A stretch of 38,965 bases of DNA. It comes from an uncultured Nitrosospira sp. (GTDB lineage Bacteria > Nitrospirota > Nitrospiria > Nitrospirales > Nitrospiraceae). The DNA lies in assembly GCA_900696515.1 (NCBI GenBank), contig CAADGK010000109.1, positions 1 through 38,965 on the forward strand, read 5' to 3'. Below the pieces are notes generated by a model. That model saw nothing but the letters and a program-made list of their open reading frames with translations. It did no database searches and was not told where the DNA came from. The stretch's first letter is position 1. Each line of letters begins with the position of its first letter. The translations under genes and the position numbers were made by a program. Below, piece after piece: positions 8,941-35,706 of this stretch.

Positions 8941-8978
8941 AGGCGGTCTCCTTTGTCGGCTGGTGGTACTGTGTCAGA

Positions 8979-9133: not shown

Positions 9134-9682
9134 CTATGGATACGCAGGACTCCGGCGAAGCAACTTCCACATGGTGCCGACTGATGGATGAGGCTCGGTG
9201 AACTCAGGCTCGCTGAGATTGATATGGATCGTGTAGAGGTGGCTGTTCACGTTCGAGATTTGAGACACCGGATACCAACATTCGTATCGTTGCTCCCAGC
9301 AGTCGCGATAGGCCAATCGCAAGTAACACCGGCTCAACAGCTTCGTGCGGATCGGCGCGTTCGGGCCAAGGACGATCGGGACGGAGTGTGTCTGATAGCG
9401 AGGGCCTTGGGGGTGGAAGGCTTTGACGGAAAAAGTACCATCCCATCCACTGAGCTGAAGGAGGAAGTCGTAGGCTACTCCTGGTCCCGTATTTTCTAAC
9501 TCCGGCGTGAAGGTAATCGTGTCTTCGGCTTTCAAGGTTGACAAGTTGGTGATGCGAACGGCAGGGACATGCTGGTGATACCGCTCTTTAGTTGTCCGAC
9601 TGATTTGACGGAGCCACACGACACTCATCCCGATGATGACAATGAAGACGAGGAACAGAGTGAGGAACATGAGAGAGTCCAT
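9134..9682 (-). CDS. Membrane-anchored hypothetical protein
   Basis: The 182-residue product starts with one strong hydrophobic segment (about 4-24, LMFLTLFLVFIVIIGMSVVWL) that would act as an uncleaved N-terminal anchor, leaving the rest on one side of the membrane. The soluble part reads as beta-strands, with ITFTPELENTGPGVAYDFLL resembling an Ig-like or CARDB-type fold, and contains three cysteines near RCYLRLAYRDCWEQRYECWY. I recognise no family. It lies between msrB and the lipocalin gene on the same strand, but the gaps on each side suggest separate transcription. Confidence 0.65.
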   Translation of the reverse strand: MDSLMFLTLFLVFIVIIGMSVVWLRQISRTTKERYHQHVPAVRITNLSTLKAEDTITFTPELENTGPGVAYDFLLQLSGWDGTFSVKAFHPQGPRYQTHSVPIVLGPNAPIRTKLLSRCYLRLAYRDCWEQRYECWYPVSQISNVNSHLYTIHINLSEPEFTEPHPSVGTMWKLLRRSPAYP

Positions 9683-14574: not shown

Positions 14575-14600
14575 TGTAAGAACTCACGCGAACCTTCGAC
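14575..14600 (+). promoter_or_regulatory. ECF-type promoter of the secreted protein/GlcG array (TGTAAGAA-N14-CGAC)
   Basis: TGTAAGAA at 14575-14582 and CGACTG from 14597 are 14 bases apart. The site is 77 bases before the ATG of the first gene of the 14.7-24.4 kb array. Half of a family A repeat (CTGACAGCTATTAGCT) lies just upstream at about 14541-14556. Confidence 0.75.
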
Positions 14601-19502: not shown

Positions 19503-19528
19503 TGTAAGGATTGTGTTGGCCGAGCGAC
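19503..19528 (+). promoter_or_regulatory. ECF-type promoter of the glucosidase gene (TGTAAGGA-N14-CGAC)
   Basis: TGTAAGGA at 19503-19510 and CGACTC from 19525 have the family spacing. It lies immediately after the second lactonase stop and 33 bases before the glucosidase ATG, so the glucan-degrading pair has its own entry point within the array. Confidence 0.75.
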
Positions 19529-24579: not shown

Positions 24580-24792
24580 ATGGCCACTAATCTCGCAATA
24601 GACGATGTGTTACTGGAGCGTGCCCGTCGGGTCGGGAAGCTCCGCACCAAGAAAGAAACGGTCACACAGGCCTTGACTGAATTCATCCAGCGCCGTCAGC
24701 AACGGAAGATTCTAAAGGCGCTGGGCACAATCGAATTCCGGAAGGGCTGGGACTACAAGAAGGATCGTCGCGATCGTGAACCTGGTCGTTGA
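24580..24792 (+). CDS. vapB: VapB-type antitoxin
   Basis: The 70-residue protein begins NLAIDDVLLERARRVGKLRT and continues KKETVTQALTEFIQRRQQRK, a ribbon-helix-helix DNA-binding domain of the VapB/DUF2191 kind. The C-terminal segment GTIEFRKGWDYKKDRRDRE is the usual toxin-wrapping tail. GGAGG lies a few bases before the ATG. Its end overlaps the toxin start by 17 bases, giving coupled translation. It should neutralise the PIN toxin and, with it, repress the promoter through the palindrome at 24553-24569. Confidence 0.92.
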   Translation: MATNLAIDDVLLERARRVGKLRTKKETVTQALTEFIQRRQQRKILKALGTIEFRKGWDYKKDRRDREPGR

Positions 24793-25183
24793 CACCTCGG
24801 TGTGGTCGTTGGTTCTTCGGAGGCCGCGGGTTGATGAAGACGACCCGCATGTCCGTGCCTTTCGCCGGCACCTGGAGTCAGGTGATGGGCTCTTTCTGAT
24901 CGGCAATATCCTACAGGAACTCCTCGACGGACTCCGTTCGTCGAAACAGTTCGACCGCTTGCTGACCATTCTCGATCCATACCCACTTCTTGAGCTGGAT
25001 CGACAGACCTATGTCGCCGCTGCTCGTCTGCGATCGGTTTGCCGTGCCAAGGGAGTCAATGCCGGTCCAATTGAGTTCCTGATTGCCGCAGCCTGCTGTC
25101 AGCACGGATTTCCCCTGCTCACTGCCGATAAAGACTTCTCCCGCATTGCCGGCCATTGCGATCTCATCACGCTTCCTGCGTGA
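24776..25183 (+). CDS. vapC: VapC-type PIN-domain ribonuclease toxin
   Basis: The 135-residue product is a complete PIN domain. Acidic metal-binding positions are D6 in VVDTSVWSL, E48 in NILQELLDGL, E100 in GPIEFLIAAACCQ and D117/D120 in LLTADKDFSRIA. The third position is usually Asp in VapC; Glu is a conservative change, so activity is likely kept. VapC toxins cleave tRNA or rRNA when VapB is degraded. Translation starts at GTG within the vapB end. The pair sits between the glucan array and a gene relic, a typical accessory position. Confidence 0.93.
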   Translation: MNLVVDTSVWSLVLRRPRVDEDDPHVRAFRRHLESGDGLFLIGNILQELLDGLRSSKQFDRLLTILDPYPLLELDRQTYVAAARLRSVCRAKGVNAGPIEFLIAAACCQHGFPLLTADKDFSRIAGHCDLITLPA

Positions 25184-25420
25184 TATCGGAAAGGCCGTCG
25201 CGTGCCGAGACGCGCCCTTTACCCAGGCGAGCACCGTTTCCATAAATGCTCCTATTTGGAATGGTGCCCGTAGCGCTCTTACTGCGCCCATGGAGGGAGC
25301 ACCGCCCTTAACTTGAGAATCAAGTTGATCCCGCGTGCACACTCCGGGAGCAGAGGAGTGACAGGGGGATGTCGTTCCTCCCACGCTGTAAGCCCATGCT
25401 CATTCGTCTGACTCTCTCTC
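25184..25420. other. Gene-free stretch after vapC
   Basis: I see no convincing gene. A short perfect palindrome AACTTGA-GAA-TCAAGTT lies at 25310-25326 without a T tract. The right end carries the decayed promoter of the GMC relic. Confidence 0.4.
25387..25412 (+). promoter_or_regulatory. Decayed ECF-type promoter before the GMC relic (TGTAAGCC-N14-TGAC)
   Basis: TGTAAGCC at 25387-25394, 14 bases, then TGACTC from 25409. It differs from the family only in the first base of the -10-like element. The distance to the relic ATG (8 bases) equals that at the intact GMC gene. Confidence 0.5.
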
Positions 25421-25535
25421 ATGACGACGCATTACGGCCTCATCATAGGCACCGGTCATGGTGGCGGTACCCTGCCCATAAACTGGTACTGTCAGGGGAA
25501 AAGATCTTGTTCCTAGAACGGGGTGACTGCTGATG
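25421..25535 (+). pseudogene. Relic of a GMC oxidoreductase N-terminus
   Basis: From the ATG at 25421 the reading frame gives MTTHYGLIIGTGHGGGTLP, close to MPSHYDIIIIGTGPGGGTLA at the start of the intact GMC gene 700 bases downstream. After a frameshift near 25480 the next frame continues HKLVLSGEKILFLERGD, matching KLAPSGKKILLLERGG of the intact protein, and then stops. The remaining catalytic part is missing. The second glycine-rich residue of the FAD motif has also changed (P to H). This is the remains of a duplicated gene or of a partial duplication of the promoter and 5' end. Confidence 0.8.
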
Positions 25536-25622
25536 AATGGACGGATGCGGGCTTGGGAGCCAGGCGAACCAGGGCCTCCCTTGTGAGAGACCCTGGCGGC
25601 CTGAAACTGGCTGGTTCGAGTG

Positions 25623-25976
25623 CTATTGCACTTCGACCGTGATGGTCTGGCTGGCCGCGACGAGGGCGTGGTCCTTCGTGGCGCCCGTCACGGTGATCTG
25701 GTGCGTCCCTTTGCTCAACCCCTTGAACACTCCGCCAAATCCCTTCTGATACTCATTGTCCACGAAGACGTGGGCATGAGCCGCTTGCGACCCCTTGGTC
25801 AACTCGTACTTCAGTTCAAAGCTGTCACTGACCTTGTCCCCCGCTTTAGGAGACGTAATCACGATCTTGGACCCATCCTCTATTGGTTTCTCGGCCGCGA
25901 AGACCGGTGCTCCGCTCAAATAGCCGGTTAATGCGAGGCCTAACCCCATGAACCCAATTCGACTCATCACTTGCAT
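25623..25976 (-). CDS. Small secreted protein of unknown function
   Basis: GGAGG five bases upstream sets the ATG at 25976, giving 117 residues. A signal peptide covers about 1-28 (GLALTGYLSGAPVFA). The mature domain, KIVITSPKAGDKVSDSFELK then AHAHVFVDNEYQKGFGGVF and GTHQITVTGATKDHALVAAS, reads as a small Ig-like beta-sandwich with a cluster of histidines. It resembles DUF4399-like secreted domains but I do not assign it firmly. It runs opposite to the intact GMC gene and shares its upstream region. No TGTAAG element is seen on its strand. Confidence 0.75.
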   Translation of the reverse strand: MQVMSRIGFMGLGLALTGYLSGAPVFAAEKPIEDGSKIVITSPKAGDKVSDSFELKYELTKGSQAAHAHVFVDNEYQKGFGGVFKGLSKGTHQITVTGATKDHALVAASQTITVEVQ

Positions 25977-26093
25977 CAGAACCTCCAAGTTTGAAATTGT
26001 TTATTGACCTATTCACTCTAACACCCCCTCTGCGTTCAATGTTGGTCTGAATTGCACAGTTCACAGAAGAGATTGTCACGAACGCCCATCCGT

Positions 26094-26119
26094 TGTAAGA
26101 CTCCATCTCCACTCTCGAC
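26094..26119 (+). promoter_or_regulatory. ECF-type promoter of the GMC-NDH-2-VOC operon (TGTAAGAC-N14-CGAC)
   Basis: TGTAAGAC at 26094-26101 and CGACTC from 26116 have the family spacing. Only eight bases separate CGAC from the ATG at 26128. Transcription from this site would start at or next to the A of the start codon, and no ribosome-binding site is present, so a leaderless transcript is predicted. Confidence 0.75.
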
Positions 26120-26127
26120 TCATCACC

Positions 26128-27672
26128 ATGCCATCTCACTACGACATTATTATCATCGGCACCGGTCCAGGCGGGGGGACGTTGGCCTATAAGCTCGCGC
26201 CGTCGGGGAAGAAGATTCTTCTGCTCGAACGGGGAGGCTATCTACTGCGTGAGAAGGACAATTGGAACAGCAAGACCGTTTTCATCGAGAACCGCTATAA
26301 GGCTAAAGAAACCTGGAAGGACAAAAACGGAAATACGTTTCACCCCGGCATTCACTACAACGTGGGTGGCAATTCAAAAGTCTACGGCGCGGCGCTGCTG
26401 CGGATGAGAGCACAGGATTTCGGCGAGGTGAAGCACCACGGCGGCATCTCGCCGGAATGGCCGATCTCCTACGATGACCTCGAACCCTATTACACCCAGG
26501 CCGAACACCTGTACCACGTGCATGGCAACCGTGGCGAAGATCCGACTGAACCGAAAGCCAGCGCGCCCTACAAGTATCCGGCTCTCTCACACGAGCCCCG
26601 TATTCAAGAACTGCACGATGATTGGCTCAAGTGTGGTCACAGGCCCTTTCATCTGCCGGTCGGCGTCATGCTGAATGAGCAGCAGCCGGAAAAGGGTGCT
26701 TGTATTCGCTGCAATACCTGCGATGGTTTTCCCTGCTTGTTGAACGCGAAGGCCGACTCGCAAGTCGTCTGCGTTGATCCAGCGCTACAGTACCCCAATG
26801 TGTCATTAGTCACTGGTGCATTGGTCACTCGGCTAGAAACGAGTACATCAGGGCGGGAAGTTACGAGCGTCGTCGTGGAGCGCAACGGGCAAACAGAAAC
26901 GTATCAGGCCGATATAGTTGTGGTCTCTTGCGGCGCGATCAACTCGGCAGCATTGCTATTGAAATCGGTGAACGACACACATCCTAATGGCCTTTCGAAT
27001 TCCTCCGGCATGGTCGGCCGGCACTATATGTGTCACAATAATTCAGCCATGCTTGCGATTTCGAAGCGGCCGAATCCGACCGTCTTCCAAAAGACCATTG
27101 GCTTGAACGACTTCTATTACGCCTCCGCCAATTGGGACTACCCGATGGGCCACATCTCGATGATCGGGAAGCAGGACTTCGAAATGCTGAAGCTCGGGGC
27201 CCCGCCTTTTGCGCCGGGGCTGGCCCTCGATGTCGCTGCGAAACATTCGCTCGATTTCTGGATGACTTCGGAAGATCTGCCAGACCCAAACAACCGCGTG
27301 CTTGTTGGGAAGGATGGGAGCATCACGCTGGCCTATACGGAGAACAATCTAGAAGCCCATCAGCGACTCGCAGCCACGCTCAAGGGCATGCTCAATCACC
27401 TGGGCTGCGAAGATCATTTGCTGCCGACGCATCTCTATTTTGGGAAGAAGATCCCCATTGCCGGCACAGCGCACCAGTGTGGGACCGTGCGCTTCGGCCG
27501 TGATCCCAAGACAAGCGTGTTGGACGTGAACTGCAAGGCCCACGATCTGGACAATCTCTACGTCGTCGATGCGAGCTTCTTCGTCTCTAGTTCGGCCGTG
27601 AATCCTTCGCTGACGATCATCGCGAACGCGCTACGAGTGGGAGACCATCTCCTGGAAAGGTTGCACACATGA
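26128..27672 (+). CDS. GMC-family flavin-dependent oxidoreductase
   Basis: The 514-residue protein begins with the FAD-binding motif DIIIIGTGPGGGTLAYKLAP and LLLERGG, and has the GMC substrate domain. Family active-site residues appear as H449 in GTAHQCGTVRFG and N492 in NPSLTIIANALR. Members oxidise alcohols or sugars (glucose, choline, gluconate, cholesterol) with FAD. A cysteine cluster, C192, C195, C198 and C203 in CIRCNTCDGFPC, could hold an iron-sulfur cluster or form disulfides. There is no classical signal peptide, so the location is uncertain. The stop overlaps the NDH-2 start (ATGA), implying coupled translation and perhaps a shared path of electrons to the quinone pool. The promoter predicts a leaderless mRNA. 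Confidence 0.92.
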   Translation: MPSHYDIIIIGTGPGGGTLAYKLAPSGKKILLLERGGYLLREKDNWNSKTVFIENRYKAKETWKDKNGNTFHPGIHYNVGGNSKVYGAALLRMRAQDFGEVKHHGGISPEWPISYDDLEPYYTQAEHLYHVHGNRGEDPTEPKASAPYKYPALSHEPRIQELHDDWLKCGHRPFHLPVGVMLNEQQPEKGACIRCNTCDGFPCLLNAKADSQVVCVDPALQYPNVSLVTGALVTRLETSTSGREVTSVVVERNGQTETYQADIVVVSCGAINSAALLLKSVNDTHPNGLSNSSGMVGRHYMCHNNSAMLAISKRPNPTVFQKTIGLNDFYYASANWDYPMGHISMIGKQDFEMLKLGAPPFAPGLALDVAAKHSLDFWMTSEDLPDPNNRVLVGKDGSITLAYTENNLEAHQRLAATLKGMLNHLGCEDHLLPTHLYFGKKIPIAGTAHQCGTVRFGRDPKTSVLDVNCKAHDLDNLYVVDASFFVSSSAVNPSLTIIANALRVGDHLLERLHT

Positions 27673-34270: not shown

Positions 34271-34540
34271 ATGCTGAAGATCACAAAAATACAGGAAAGC
34301 GCCCGCGACGTTTTACTCAAGTTGGAGGGCAAGGTCACGGAGCAATGGGCAGCGCTGCTCGATGGAGAGTGCCGAGCCTATCTCCGGCAGCAGAAATCGG
34401 TGTTCTTGGATTGTTCCCACGTCGACTACATCGACGGTCGCGGAGTCGAAGTCCTGAACGCATTCCCTCATACACATGTCACCCTTATGAGCGCTCCAGC
34501 CCTGATGACGGAGCTGCTCCAGATTGGAGGCCGGTCATGA
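34271..34540 (+). CDS. STAS-domain protein
   Basis: The 89-residue protein is a single STAS domain: RDVLLKLEGKVTEQWAALLD, then VFLDCSHVDYIDGRGVEVLN and a final helix. This fold is used by anti-anti-sigma factors such as SpoIIAA. In those the segment reads D-S-x-G with a phosphorylated Ser; here it reads D-G-R-G, so the regulatory Ser is absent and control by phosphorylation seems unlikely. AGGAGG lies upstream of the ATG. Its stop overlaps the ECF sigma start (ATGA), so the two proteins are made together, suggesting a joint function with the sigma factor or its anti-sigma. Confidence 0.85.
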   Translation: MLKITKIQESARDVLLKLEGKVTEQWAALLDGECRAYLRQQKSVFLDCSHVDYIDGRGVEVLNAFPHTHVTLMSAPALMTELLQIGGRS

Positions 34541-35250
34541 ACGTGCACACCAGTACAGTTACGACATCCCTGAGCTATGGCATCGTGTCGGTTCAAGAGC
34601 CGGAGTTGGAGCAACCACCGGCAGTGGTGAACAGAGAGGCTGTCCTTCTCTCACGGCTGAGACAGGGCGATGAAGGGGCGTTCAATGAGTTAGTCACACA
34701 CCACCATGGCGCATTGGTTAGAACGGCCATGGGGTATGTGGCTGATCGAGATGTAGCGGAGGAGGTCGTTCAAGATACCTGGATGGCGGTGATCGAAGGA
34801 CTGGATCGATTCGAAGGACGGTCGTCGCTGAGAACCTGGATCTTTGGGATCATGATTCACAAGGCCAAAGATCGCGGGGTTCGAGAGAAGCGTCACGTCA
34901 ATTTCTCGTCTTTTGAGTCGGTCGACGAGGAAGGCGAGGAAGCTGTCGATCCGTCGCGATTTCATCAGTCTGGTGAATGGGCCGGGCATTGGGCCTTTCC
35001 TCCACAGCGGTGGGACGATCAGACTCCGGAAAAGCTCCTGGCGTCACAGCAGGCGGTGAATGCGATGAACCATGCGATCGAGGCGCTGCCGAAGAATTTA
35101 AAAGAAGTTCTGATCCTGAGAGATGTCGAAGGAATTGAGGCCAAGGAAGTCTGCGGAATCTTAAAGATTACCGAGACCAATCTCTATGTCAGACTGCATC
35201 GGGCCAGAGAGCGGGTGCGTCAGACGGTGGAGACGTATCTGGAAGGATAG
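34537..35250 (+). CDS. ECF-type RNA polymerase sigma factor
   Basis: The ATG at 34537 overlaps the STAS stop and has GGAGG six bases upstream. The 237-residue product has sigma region 2 (about 48-110: GAFNELVTHHHGALVRTAMG, DVAEEVVQDTWMAVIEGLDR, SSLRTWIFGIMIHKAKD) and sigma region 4 (about 180-235: LPKNLKEVLILRDVEGIEAK with TETNLYVRLHRARERVRQTV), without regions 1 or 3, as in ECF factors. The linker is long and acidic and includes WAFPPQRWDDQTPEKLL. A zinc-finger anti-sigma gene follows, the usual partner arrangement. It is expressed from a sigma54 promoter, not from the TGTAAG motif. I infer that it reads the TGTAAG-N16-CGAC promoters; that pairing is not proven by sequence. Confidence 0.94.
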   Translation: MNVHTSTVTTSLSYGIVSVQEPELEQPPAVVNREAVLLSRLRQGDEGAFNELVTHHHGALVRTAMGYVADRDVAEEVVQDTWMAVIEGLDRFEGRSSLRTWIFGIMIHKAKDRGVREKRHVNFSSFESVDEEGEEAVDPSRFHQSGEWAGHWAFPPQRWDDQTPEKLLASQQAVNAMNHAIEALPKNLKEVLILRDVEGIEAKEVCGILKITETNLYVRLHRARERVRQTVETYLEG

Positions 35251-35381: not shown

Positions 35382-35407
35382 TGTAAGAAATCGCCGTCGG
35401 GGCCGAC
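35382..35407 (+). promoter_or_regulatory. ECF-type promoter of the anti-sigma/glucose dehydrogenase genes (TGTAAGAA-N14-CGAC)
   Basis: TGTAAGAA at 35382-35389 and CGACTC from 35404 have the family spacing, and the ATG of the zinc-finger gene is 29 bases downstream. Its position means that the sigma factor would switch on its own likely inhibitor. Confidence 0.75.
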
Positions 35408-35436: not shown

Positions 35437-35706
35437 ATGGCACAAGAAGAGGGGCAGCGGATTGATCCAGAGATCACCTGCCACGAGGTCGTGCAGTGGG
35501 CCTCAGCATACCTGGACGATCATGTTGGTGACGAACGGAAACGACAGATCGCCCTGCATTTGGCCATCTGTGCCGGCTGCGAGACGTACATGAAGCAGAT
35601 TGCGATGGTCCGTGATCTGATGGGGATGTTACCCCGGGAACGTGATGTTTCCCCTGACTTGCAACGCTTGCAGCGGGCTTTTGGAGAACGGTCACGCCGA
35701 CCATGA
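35437..35706 (+). CDS. Zinc-finger anti-sigma factor (zf-HC2)
   Basis: The 89-residue protein contains the ZAS zinc motif H-x3-C-x2-C in LHLAICAGCETYM, preceded by TCHEVVQWASAYLDDHVGDE, the typical helix that binds the sigma factor. There is no membrane segment, so it is a soluble anti-sigma of the kind that can release its partner when the cysteines are oxidised or lose zinc. It follows the ECF sigma gene but is set apart by a repeat, a hairpin and its own TGTAAG-type promoter. That wiring gives negative feedback independent of the sigma54 promoter. GAGGAGGG precedes the ATG. Confidence 0.9.
   Translation: MAQEEGQRIDPEITCHEVVQWASAYLDDHVGDERKRQIALHLAICAGCETYMKQIAMVRDLMGMLPRERDVSPDLQRLQRAFGERSRRP

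Follow-up and report, generated by a model that had tools for sequence, protein, structure and literature searches.

A decayed gene start in front of an intact GMC gene

The window, by which we mean the whole stretch of 38,965 nucleotides that was analysed, belongs to the draft genome G000 and carries an intact gene that is a member of the GMC oxidoreductase family, followed by an NDH2-like gene, a VOC gene and a sigma-54 activator. Upstream of this gene lie a VapB-VapC pair, a dispersed hairpin element, a relic of the beginning of a GMC gene behind its own promoter motif, a short hairpin and a small gene to which we give the working name DUFm (Table 1).

Table 1. Features upstream of and including the intact GMC gene of the window
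Feature	Position	Strand	Remarks
VapB-VapC pair	24580-25183	+	Upstream of relic; VapB by Pfam, VapC by Pfam and NCBIfam
Dispersed structured element, imperfect hairpin of ~128 nt	25255-25384	+	Directly before relic promoter
Relic promoter motif TGTAAG-N17-GACT	25387-25413	+	ECF-type by resemblance; TGTAAG 25387-25392, GACT 25410-25413
Relic of the first ~36 codons of the GMC gene	25421-25533	+	ATG 25421; 3-nt deletion, frameshift, stops
CCAGGG...CCCTGG hairpin	25568-25599	.	3' side of DUFm gene, insert edge
Insert gene DUFm, 121-aa ORF	25623-25988	-	No Pfam/NCBIfam match
Intact GMC promoter motif	26094-26120	+	TGTAAG 26094-26099, GACT 26117-26120, ATG 26128
Intact GMC oxidoreductase gene, 514 aa	26128-27672	+	PF05199, PF00732

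The stretch 25387-25533 is a genuine decayed GMC gene start, which aligns as a homologue with the promoter and the first ~36 codons of the intact gene. When 25380-25540 was aligned with 26085-26300 the score was 55, against a maximum of 27 in 1000 dinucleotide shuffles, and homology in the segment that encodes the N-terminal FAD-binding part is above chance. The frame that begins at 25421 reads MTTHYGLIIGTGHGGGTLPINWYCQGKRSCS and meets a stop at 25514-25516, i.e. after 31 codons, while a second frame reads KILFLERGDC up to a stop at 25531-25533; with that early stop and the frameshift, the relic has no open reading frame able to make the enzyme. The relic differs from other members of the GMC family in retaining the N-terminal FAD-binding start only. 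The first-pass annotation had described the decayed beginning of a GMC gene whose promoter can still be recognised, and alignment and motif support this description; the motif, both peptide pieces and the start codon were found where it had placed them, and the geometry that it had called identical in relic and intact gene is indeed so, with 34 positions from TGTAAG to ATG and a gap of 7 bases between GACT and ATG in both.

Promoters of ECF sigma factors consist of two short boxes at fixed spacing, and a conserved two-box motif at fixed spacing precedes genes of the present cluster. The exact pattern TGTAAG-N17-GACT occurs seven times in the 39-kb window (at 8978 on the minus strand and at 14575, 19503, 25387, 26094, 35382 and 36899) against 0.07 expected, and seven was reached in 0 of 100 shuffles. 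Across the whole genome there are 12 exact sites, equal to the 12 of a reversed-pattern control, and 7 of the 12 are on the window's contig, so that the sites form a local cluster. The same motif stands in front of orthologous GMC genes, and through this presence and the counts the promoter motif named by the earlier annotation proved real. The promoter part alone shows weak similarity between relic and gene, its alignment score being matched by 321 of 2000 shuffles, so that the likeness was dropped as an argument from alignment and retained through the motif counts only. The site at 19503 precedes a GH63 gene and that at 35382 a zf-HC2 ORF (35437-35706), and the same cluster holds an ECF-type sigma gene (34345-35250), whose product would read the motif. 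The likeness to ECF sigma promoters lies in the two-box form and in the presence, within the cluster, of genes for an ECF-type sigma factor and a zf-HC2 protein, the consensus itself not being matched here to a named ECF group; in the portion of the Nitrospira literature on ECF sigma factor promoters that was consulted, nothing was evidently about this motif. The seven motifs, the sigma gene and the zf-HC2 ORF probably make up a local sigma regulon that includes GH63 and GMC.

The hairpin element that abuts the relic folds with a z of -4.16, and the consensus of ten copies has 43 pairs, nine of them with compensatory change; its model (R2) scores 25255-25384 at 121.5 bits by construction, as this sequence was fed to the model. 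At E<=0.001 it has matches in 73 of 79 genomes, with at least 25 in a single genome, these counts being lower bounds with rough E-values (up to 43 candidates scored per genome), and the window's own genome has six at E<=0.01. Rfam gave no match at gathering level in the window and none at E<=5 for 25180-25620. The element is a genus-wide, unnamed structured element that may represent either an RNA or a repeat of the REP/MITE type; in the consulted part of the repetitive extragenic palindromic literature, one paper names N. moscoviensis in a table. At the GMC locus it was seen only before the relic of the window, the first relic of contig L035 and, in part, the relic of G009, and in the same place before the intact GMC gene of G008. 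An integron-like role as the boundary of every insert was considered and, in view of this distribution, dropped.

GMC genes and relics in Nitrospira

The window's genome has one GMC gene of this kind, its two other matches being weak (E 7e-4 and 9e-4). Matches at E<=1e-60 were present in 9 of 79 Nitrospira genomes, and some of the nine are partial (G010 is split, G026 lies at a contig end and G067 is internally deleted). Two GMC genes occur only in G008 (UBA2082) and G069, the second being 68-70% identical and at a different, GH63-linked locus. This GH63-linked group (the second genes of G008 and G069 and the split gene of G010, 68-76%) was tried as the source of the relic and rejected as a separate group; its member in G008 has an in-frame TAG (L024/L045) and that in G010 lies in two frames (L020). 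The G067 gene (L021, 11260-11720) has lost codons ~11-352, and the promoter, the start and the C-terminal part are left.

A profile of the GMC start gave 18 matches of at least 44 bits in 13 of the 79 genomes, the next one, at 28.3 bits, resembling other flavoproteins in our judgement; 57 genomes have some match at E<=0.05, and the stricter filters that were applied may lose weak matches. Ten of the 18 are gene starts and eight are detached, in seven genomes (G000, G009, G025, G060, G067, G024 and, with two, G078); most of the detached fragments had been fed to the profile and match by construction, those of G060 and G024 had not. The G024 match is a GMC gene cut after ~20 codons, on the other side of DUFm. 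Named contigs add one relic in L031 (labelled Nitrospiraceae) and two in L035, giving a total of ten upstream relics in eight Nitrospira-type genomes, beside different small inserts, the weakest being that of G067 (E 0.01).

Together with the truncated G024 gene start these make 11 detached fragments (E<=0.01), and all of them map to positions 2-112 of the 1536 of a full-length GMC profile, which was made from 16 genes from about codon 3 and run over 552,176 bases of loci chosen for holding GMC or DUFm. Besides whole genes, the other matches at E<=0.01 were in L021 (the 3' part of the deleted G067 gene) and L022 (cut by a contig end). What was duplicated is therefore the 5' end. Under permissive pairwise alignment the relic of G009 (UBA2083) runs to about nt 178, so that the relic ends are approximate. 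A search beyond Nitrospira covered 79 of 80 named loci, L045 being left out for its in-frame stop; extra N-terminal fragments upstream of GMC were found there only in L026, L031 and L035 (the second L035 relic being missed), fragments downstream of GMC in L056 and L061, and other matches in L041 and L079. Several intact GMC loci, e.g. L027, L029, L033 and L037, show no relic.

Order of relics and inserts and signs of exchange at the gene start

The sequence directly upstream of GMC differs among most genomes compared, and the order GMC-VOC-activator is kept in G008, G006 (Ga0074138), G069, G003 (N. moscoviensis) and others. The simplest arrangements are those of G008 (hairpin element, promoter, intact GMC) and G003 (VapBC, GMC). 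A single relic precedes an insert and the gene in L031 (relic, DUFm, GMC), G009 (hairpin end, relic, DUF2442/DUF4160 pair, GMC) and the window (VapBC, hairpin, relic, DUFm, GMC); relic, DUFm and activator follow a DUF2442/DUF4160 pair in G060 and a DUF2442-type gene only in G025. Two relics in series are found in L035 (relic, VapBC, relic, DUFm, GMC), where the gene is kept, and in G078 (relic, DUF2442/DUF4160 pair, relic, DUFm, activator), where it is lost. The inserts measure ~0.55-0.8 kb and hold DUFm, VapBC or the DUF4160/DUF2442 pair, and there is no recombinase among the genes of the inserts examined.

Window positions 25257-25506 match G008 upstream of and into its intact GMC gene at 74% over 255 bp, a part of this match being the dispersed element, which occurs elsewhere too. 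The same 3 nt (one I codon) are missing from the relics of G000 and G009 and from the first relic of L035, and none of 16 intact genes has a gap at this site, which points to a probable single origin of the first relic; in G078 the first relic is likewise shorter by 3 nt, but the gap can be placed in more than one way. The DUFm side of the window's relic is common to G067, G060, G078 and G025, while in G001, G018, G063 and G024 the match extends 8-17 nt into the relic end (31 bp at 97% for G001) and in G006 it ends short of the relic. The window's relic therefore combines the upstream side of a first relic with the insert side of a second, as if two relics had merged by recombination.

As for the VapBC adjacency pointed out by the first-pass annotation, the module is present, but it is one of several inserts near the spot and not a fixed partner. 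A homologous unit lies between the two relics of L035 and directly before GMC in G003. The L035 copy spans a TTGACA box to the stop codon and adjoins a relic on both sides, and its VapB shows by eye an altered start and an in-frame stop. The part in common, from TTGACA box to stop codon, corresponds to 24580-25183 of the window, 4674-5286 of L035 and 5300-5903 of L038, and the unit is joined to different neighbours in L035 and G003. DUFm has matches, mostly distant, in 74 of the 79 genomes. It is found on the same stretch as a homologue of window gene 9134-9682 in G068, G023, G051, G002 and G014, which are without a GMC match at E<=1e-60, and also in G069, in a copy away from the GMC genes, so that its place before GMC may be derived. 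On the other hand, L030 has DUFm (67%) directly before GMC and no relic was detected there, so this neighbourhood may be old. Inspection by eye showed that DUFm homologues have hairpins in the corresponding position, similar to that at the insert edge of the window.

Exchange at the 5' end of the gene is most evident in L031, whose GMC gene is 97-99% identical to those of L035 and L036 over the first 150 nt and ~81% after that. It differs from L036 at 2 of the first 150 positions and at 260 of the following 1383 (p 1.5e-10), and from L035 at 4 of 150 and 257 of 1383 (p 1.6e-8). The block of high identity starts at the coding start and the leader is unlike those of L035 and L036, thus promoter and 5' end did not travel together in L031. 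L035 and L036 are 97% identical over 2.3 kb from one base before TGTAAG and unrelated just upstream, where their inserts differ. For the window gene itself the mosaic signal is weak (against G009, p 0.23 for the first 150 nt and 0.008 for the first 300 nt; at 300 nt, p 0.22 against G006 and 0.39 against G008). When intact loci were compared, 115 of 120 pairs became homologous no earlier than 60 bases from the promoter; this is only supportive and in part ordinary divergence, because intergenic DNA diverges fast.

Origin of the relics

Homology, common junctions, relics from the 5' end only, intermediate arrangements and one 5' mosaic gene (L031) are all observed at these loci, and we consider it probable that the relic is a displaced GMC 5' end, a remnant of serial insertion or recombination in which a new promoter and 5' end were supplied. 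Incoming DNA, probably from another Nitrospira, would bring in a small gene, in this case DUFm, together with a promoter and the beginning of a GMC gene, and would recombine into the resident GMC gene, so that the new promoter and start take over the reading frame while the old promoter and ~36 codons stay upstream of the insert and decay. Repeats at the same spot with other inserts would yield up to two relics in series. The agent would putatively be homologous recombination of the RecA type, perhaps combined with an illegitimate joint at one of the two sides. The comparison of sequences suggests that small gene cassettes entered in front of GMC, apparently more than once, perhaps in 2-4 independent events by our estimate, as common ancestry explains several relics; no empty and filled pair of close strains was found. 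An ordinary-looking pseudogene would thereby turn into a record from which successive insertions at a single promoter can be read.

The boldest part of this proposal is that a relic may act as the left homology arm of a later exchange. It is conceivable, though we hold it with some doubt, that Nitrospira genomes have, at the GMC start, a hotspot of insertion without an integrase, where relics of promoter and ~36 codons serve as ready-made homology arms for cassette exchange between species ahead of a gene under sigma-factor control, with promoter and start regenerated each time. If relics are homology arms, they would offer toxin-antitoxin pairs and other small genes a simple route between nitrifiers without a recombinase of their own.

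C-terminal displacement in Rhs genes was reportedly described by Jackson in 2009. For Vibrio T6SS effector-immunity modules, the consulted part of one report (PMC5361080) discusses sequential displacement through homologous and homology-facilitated illegitimate recombination. Judging from that part, the likeness to the T6SS and Rhs cases is that successive incoming modules push older gene pieces outward into an array; in those cases polymorphic toxin genes have their 3' ends displaced while the immunity genes are retained, whereas at GMC a flavoenzyme gene has its promoter and 5' end displaced, and these decay, an orientation that mirrors the known C-terminal arrays. Several displaced ends in series beside an intact gene exist in L035, the window having one relic; the cargo at these loci is DUFm, VapBC or DUF4160/DUF2442, not polymorphic toxin and immunity genes, and the displaced end is the 5' end.

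The earlier annotation had read the relic as a second gene, duplicated and then lost in one copy, and had proposed a past change of gene dosage or a replacement. A past duplication or replacement event stands, but not a full second gene that was lost, and a dosage change is not indicated. Tandem duplication of the whole GMC gene, followed by deletion of most of the first copy, would leave a promoter-bearing 5' fragment beside an intact gene, just as is seen, and truncated GMC genes do exist, as G067 (without codons ~11-352) and G024 (with ~20 codons retained) attest. However, all 11 detached fragments fall within the first 112 profile positions, the inserts differ between relics, and no tandem intact pair, for which the annotation had advised looking in relatives, was found in the 79 genomes or in the 17 named loci L025-L040 and L058 with flanks of up to 6 kb; lacking both fragments from elsewhere in the gene and tandem copies, this explanation was rejected as the main one and we regard it as unlikely. 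An integrase or transposase that targets the GMC 5' end and restores it is more improbable still. The model would be the dusA islands, in which, according to the portion of the source consulted (PMC4482086), the incoming element provides the gene with a substitute 5' end and the former one stays behind; the same outcome is proposed here at GMC. But the dusA islands are there described as prophages or genomic islands with an integrase, while the GMC inserts are sub-kilobase in size and filled by genes among which there is no recombinase, and relic ends differ between inserts.

That the relic is kept as a promoter or a small RNA under the same sigma factor seems very improbable to us. The exact motif does survive in three of the ten relics (G000, the first of L035 and G025), yet in the other seven it is not exact, the coding part decays with stops and indels, and the window was itself selected for the motif. 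Chance resemblance or an assembly artefact, for which the draft state of the genome (144 contigs) might speak, has a negligible probability in view of an alignment score that 1000 shuffles did not approach and of like relics in seven other assemblies.

The displacement of gene starts that we favour for GMC has a counterpart in Nitrospira sp. RSF48 (L032, 1557-5430), where GH63 is accompanied by two 5' fragments, each behind the promoter motif and one of them ~0.5 kb before the GMC promoter. A further gene of the cluster has displaced starts of this type, which means that general recombination within the cluster may be at work.
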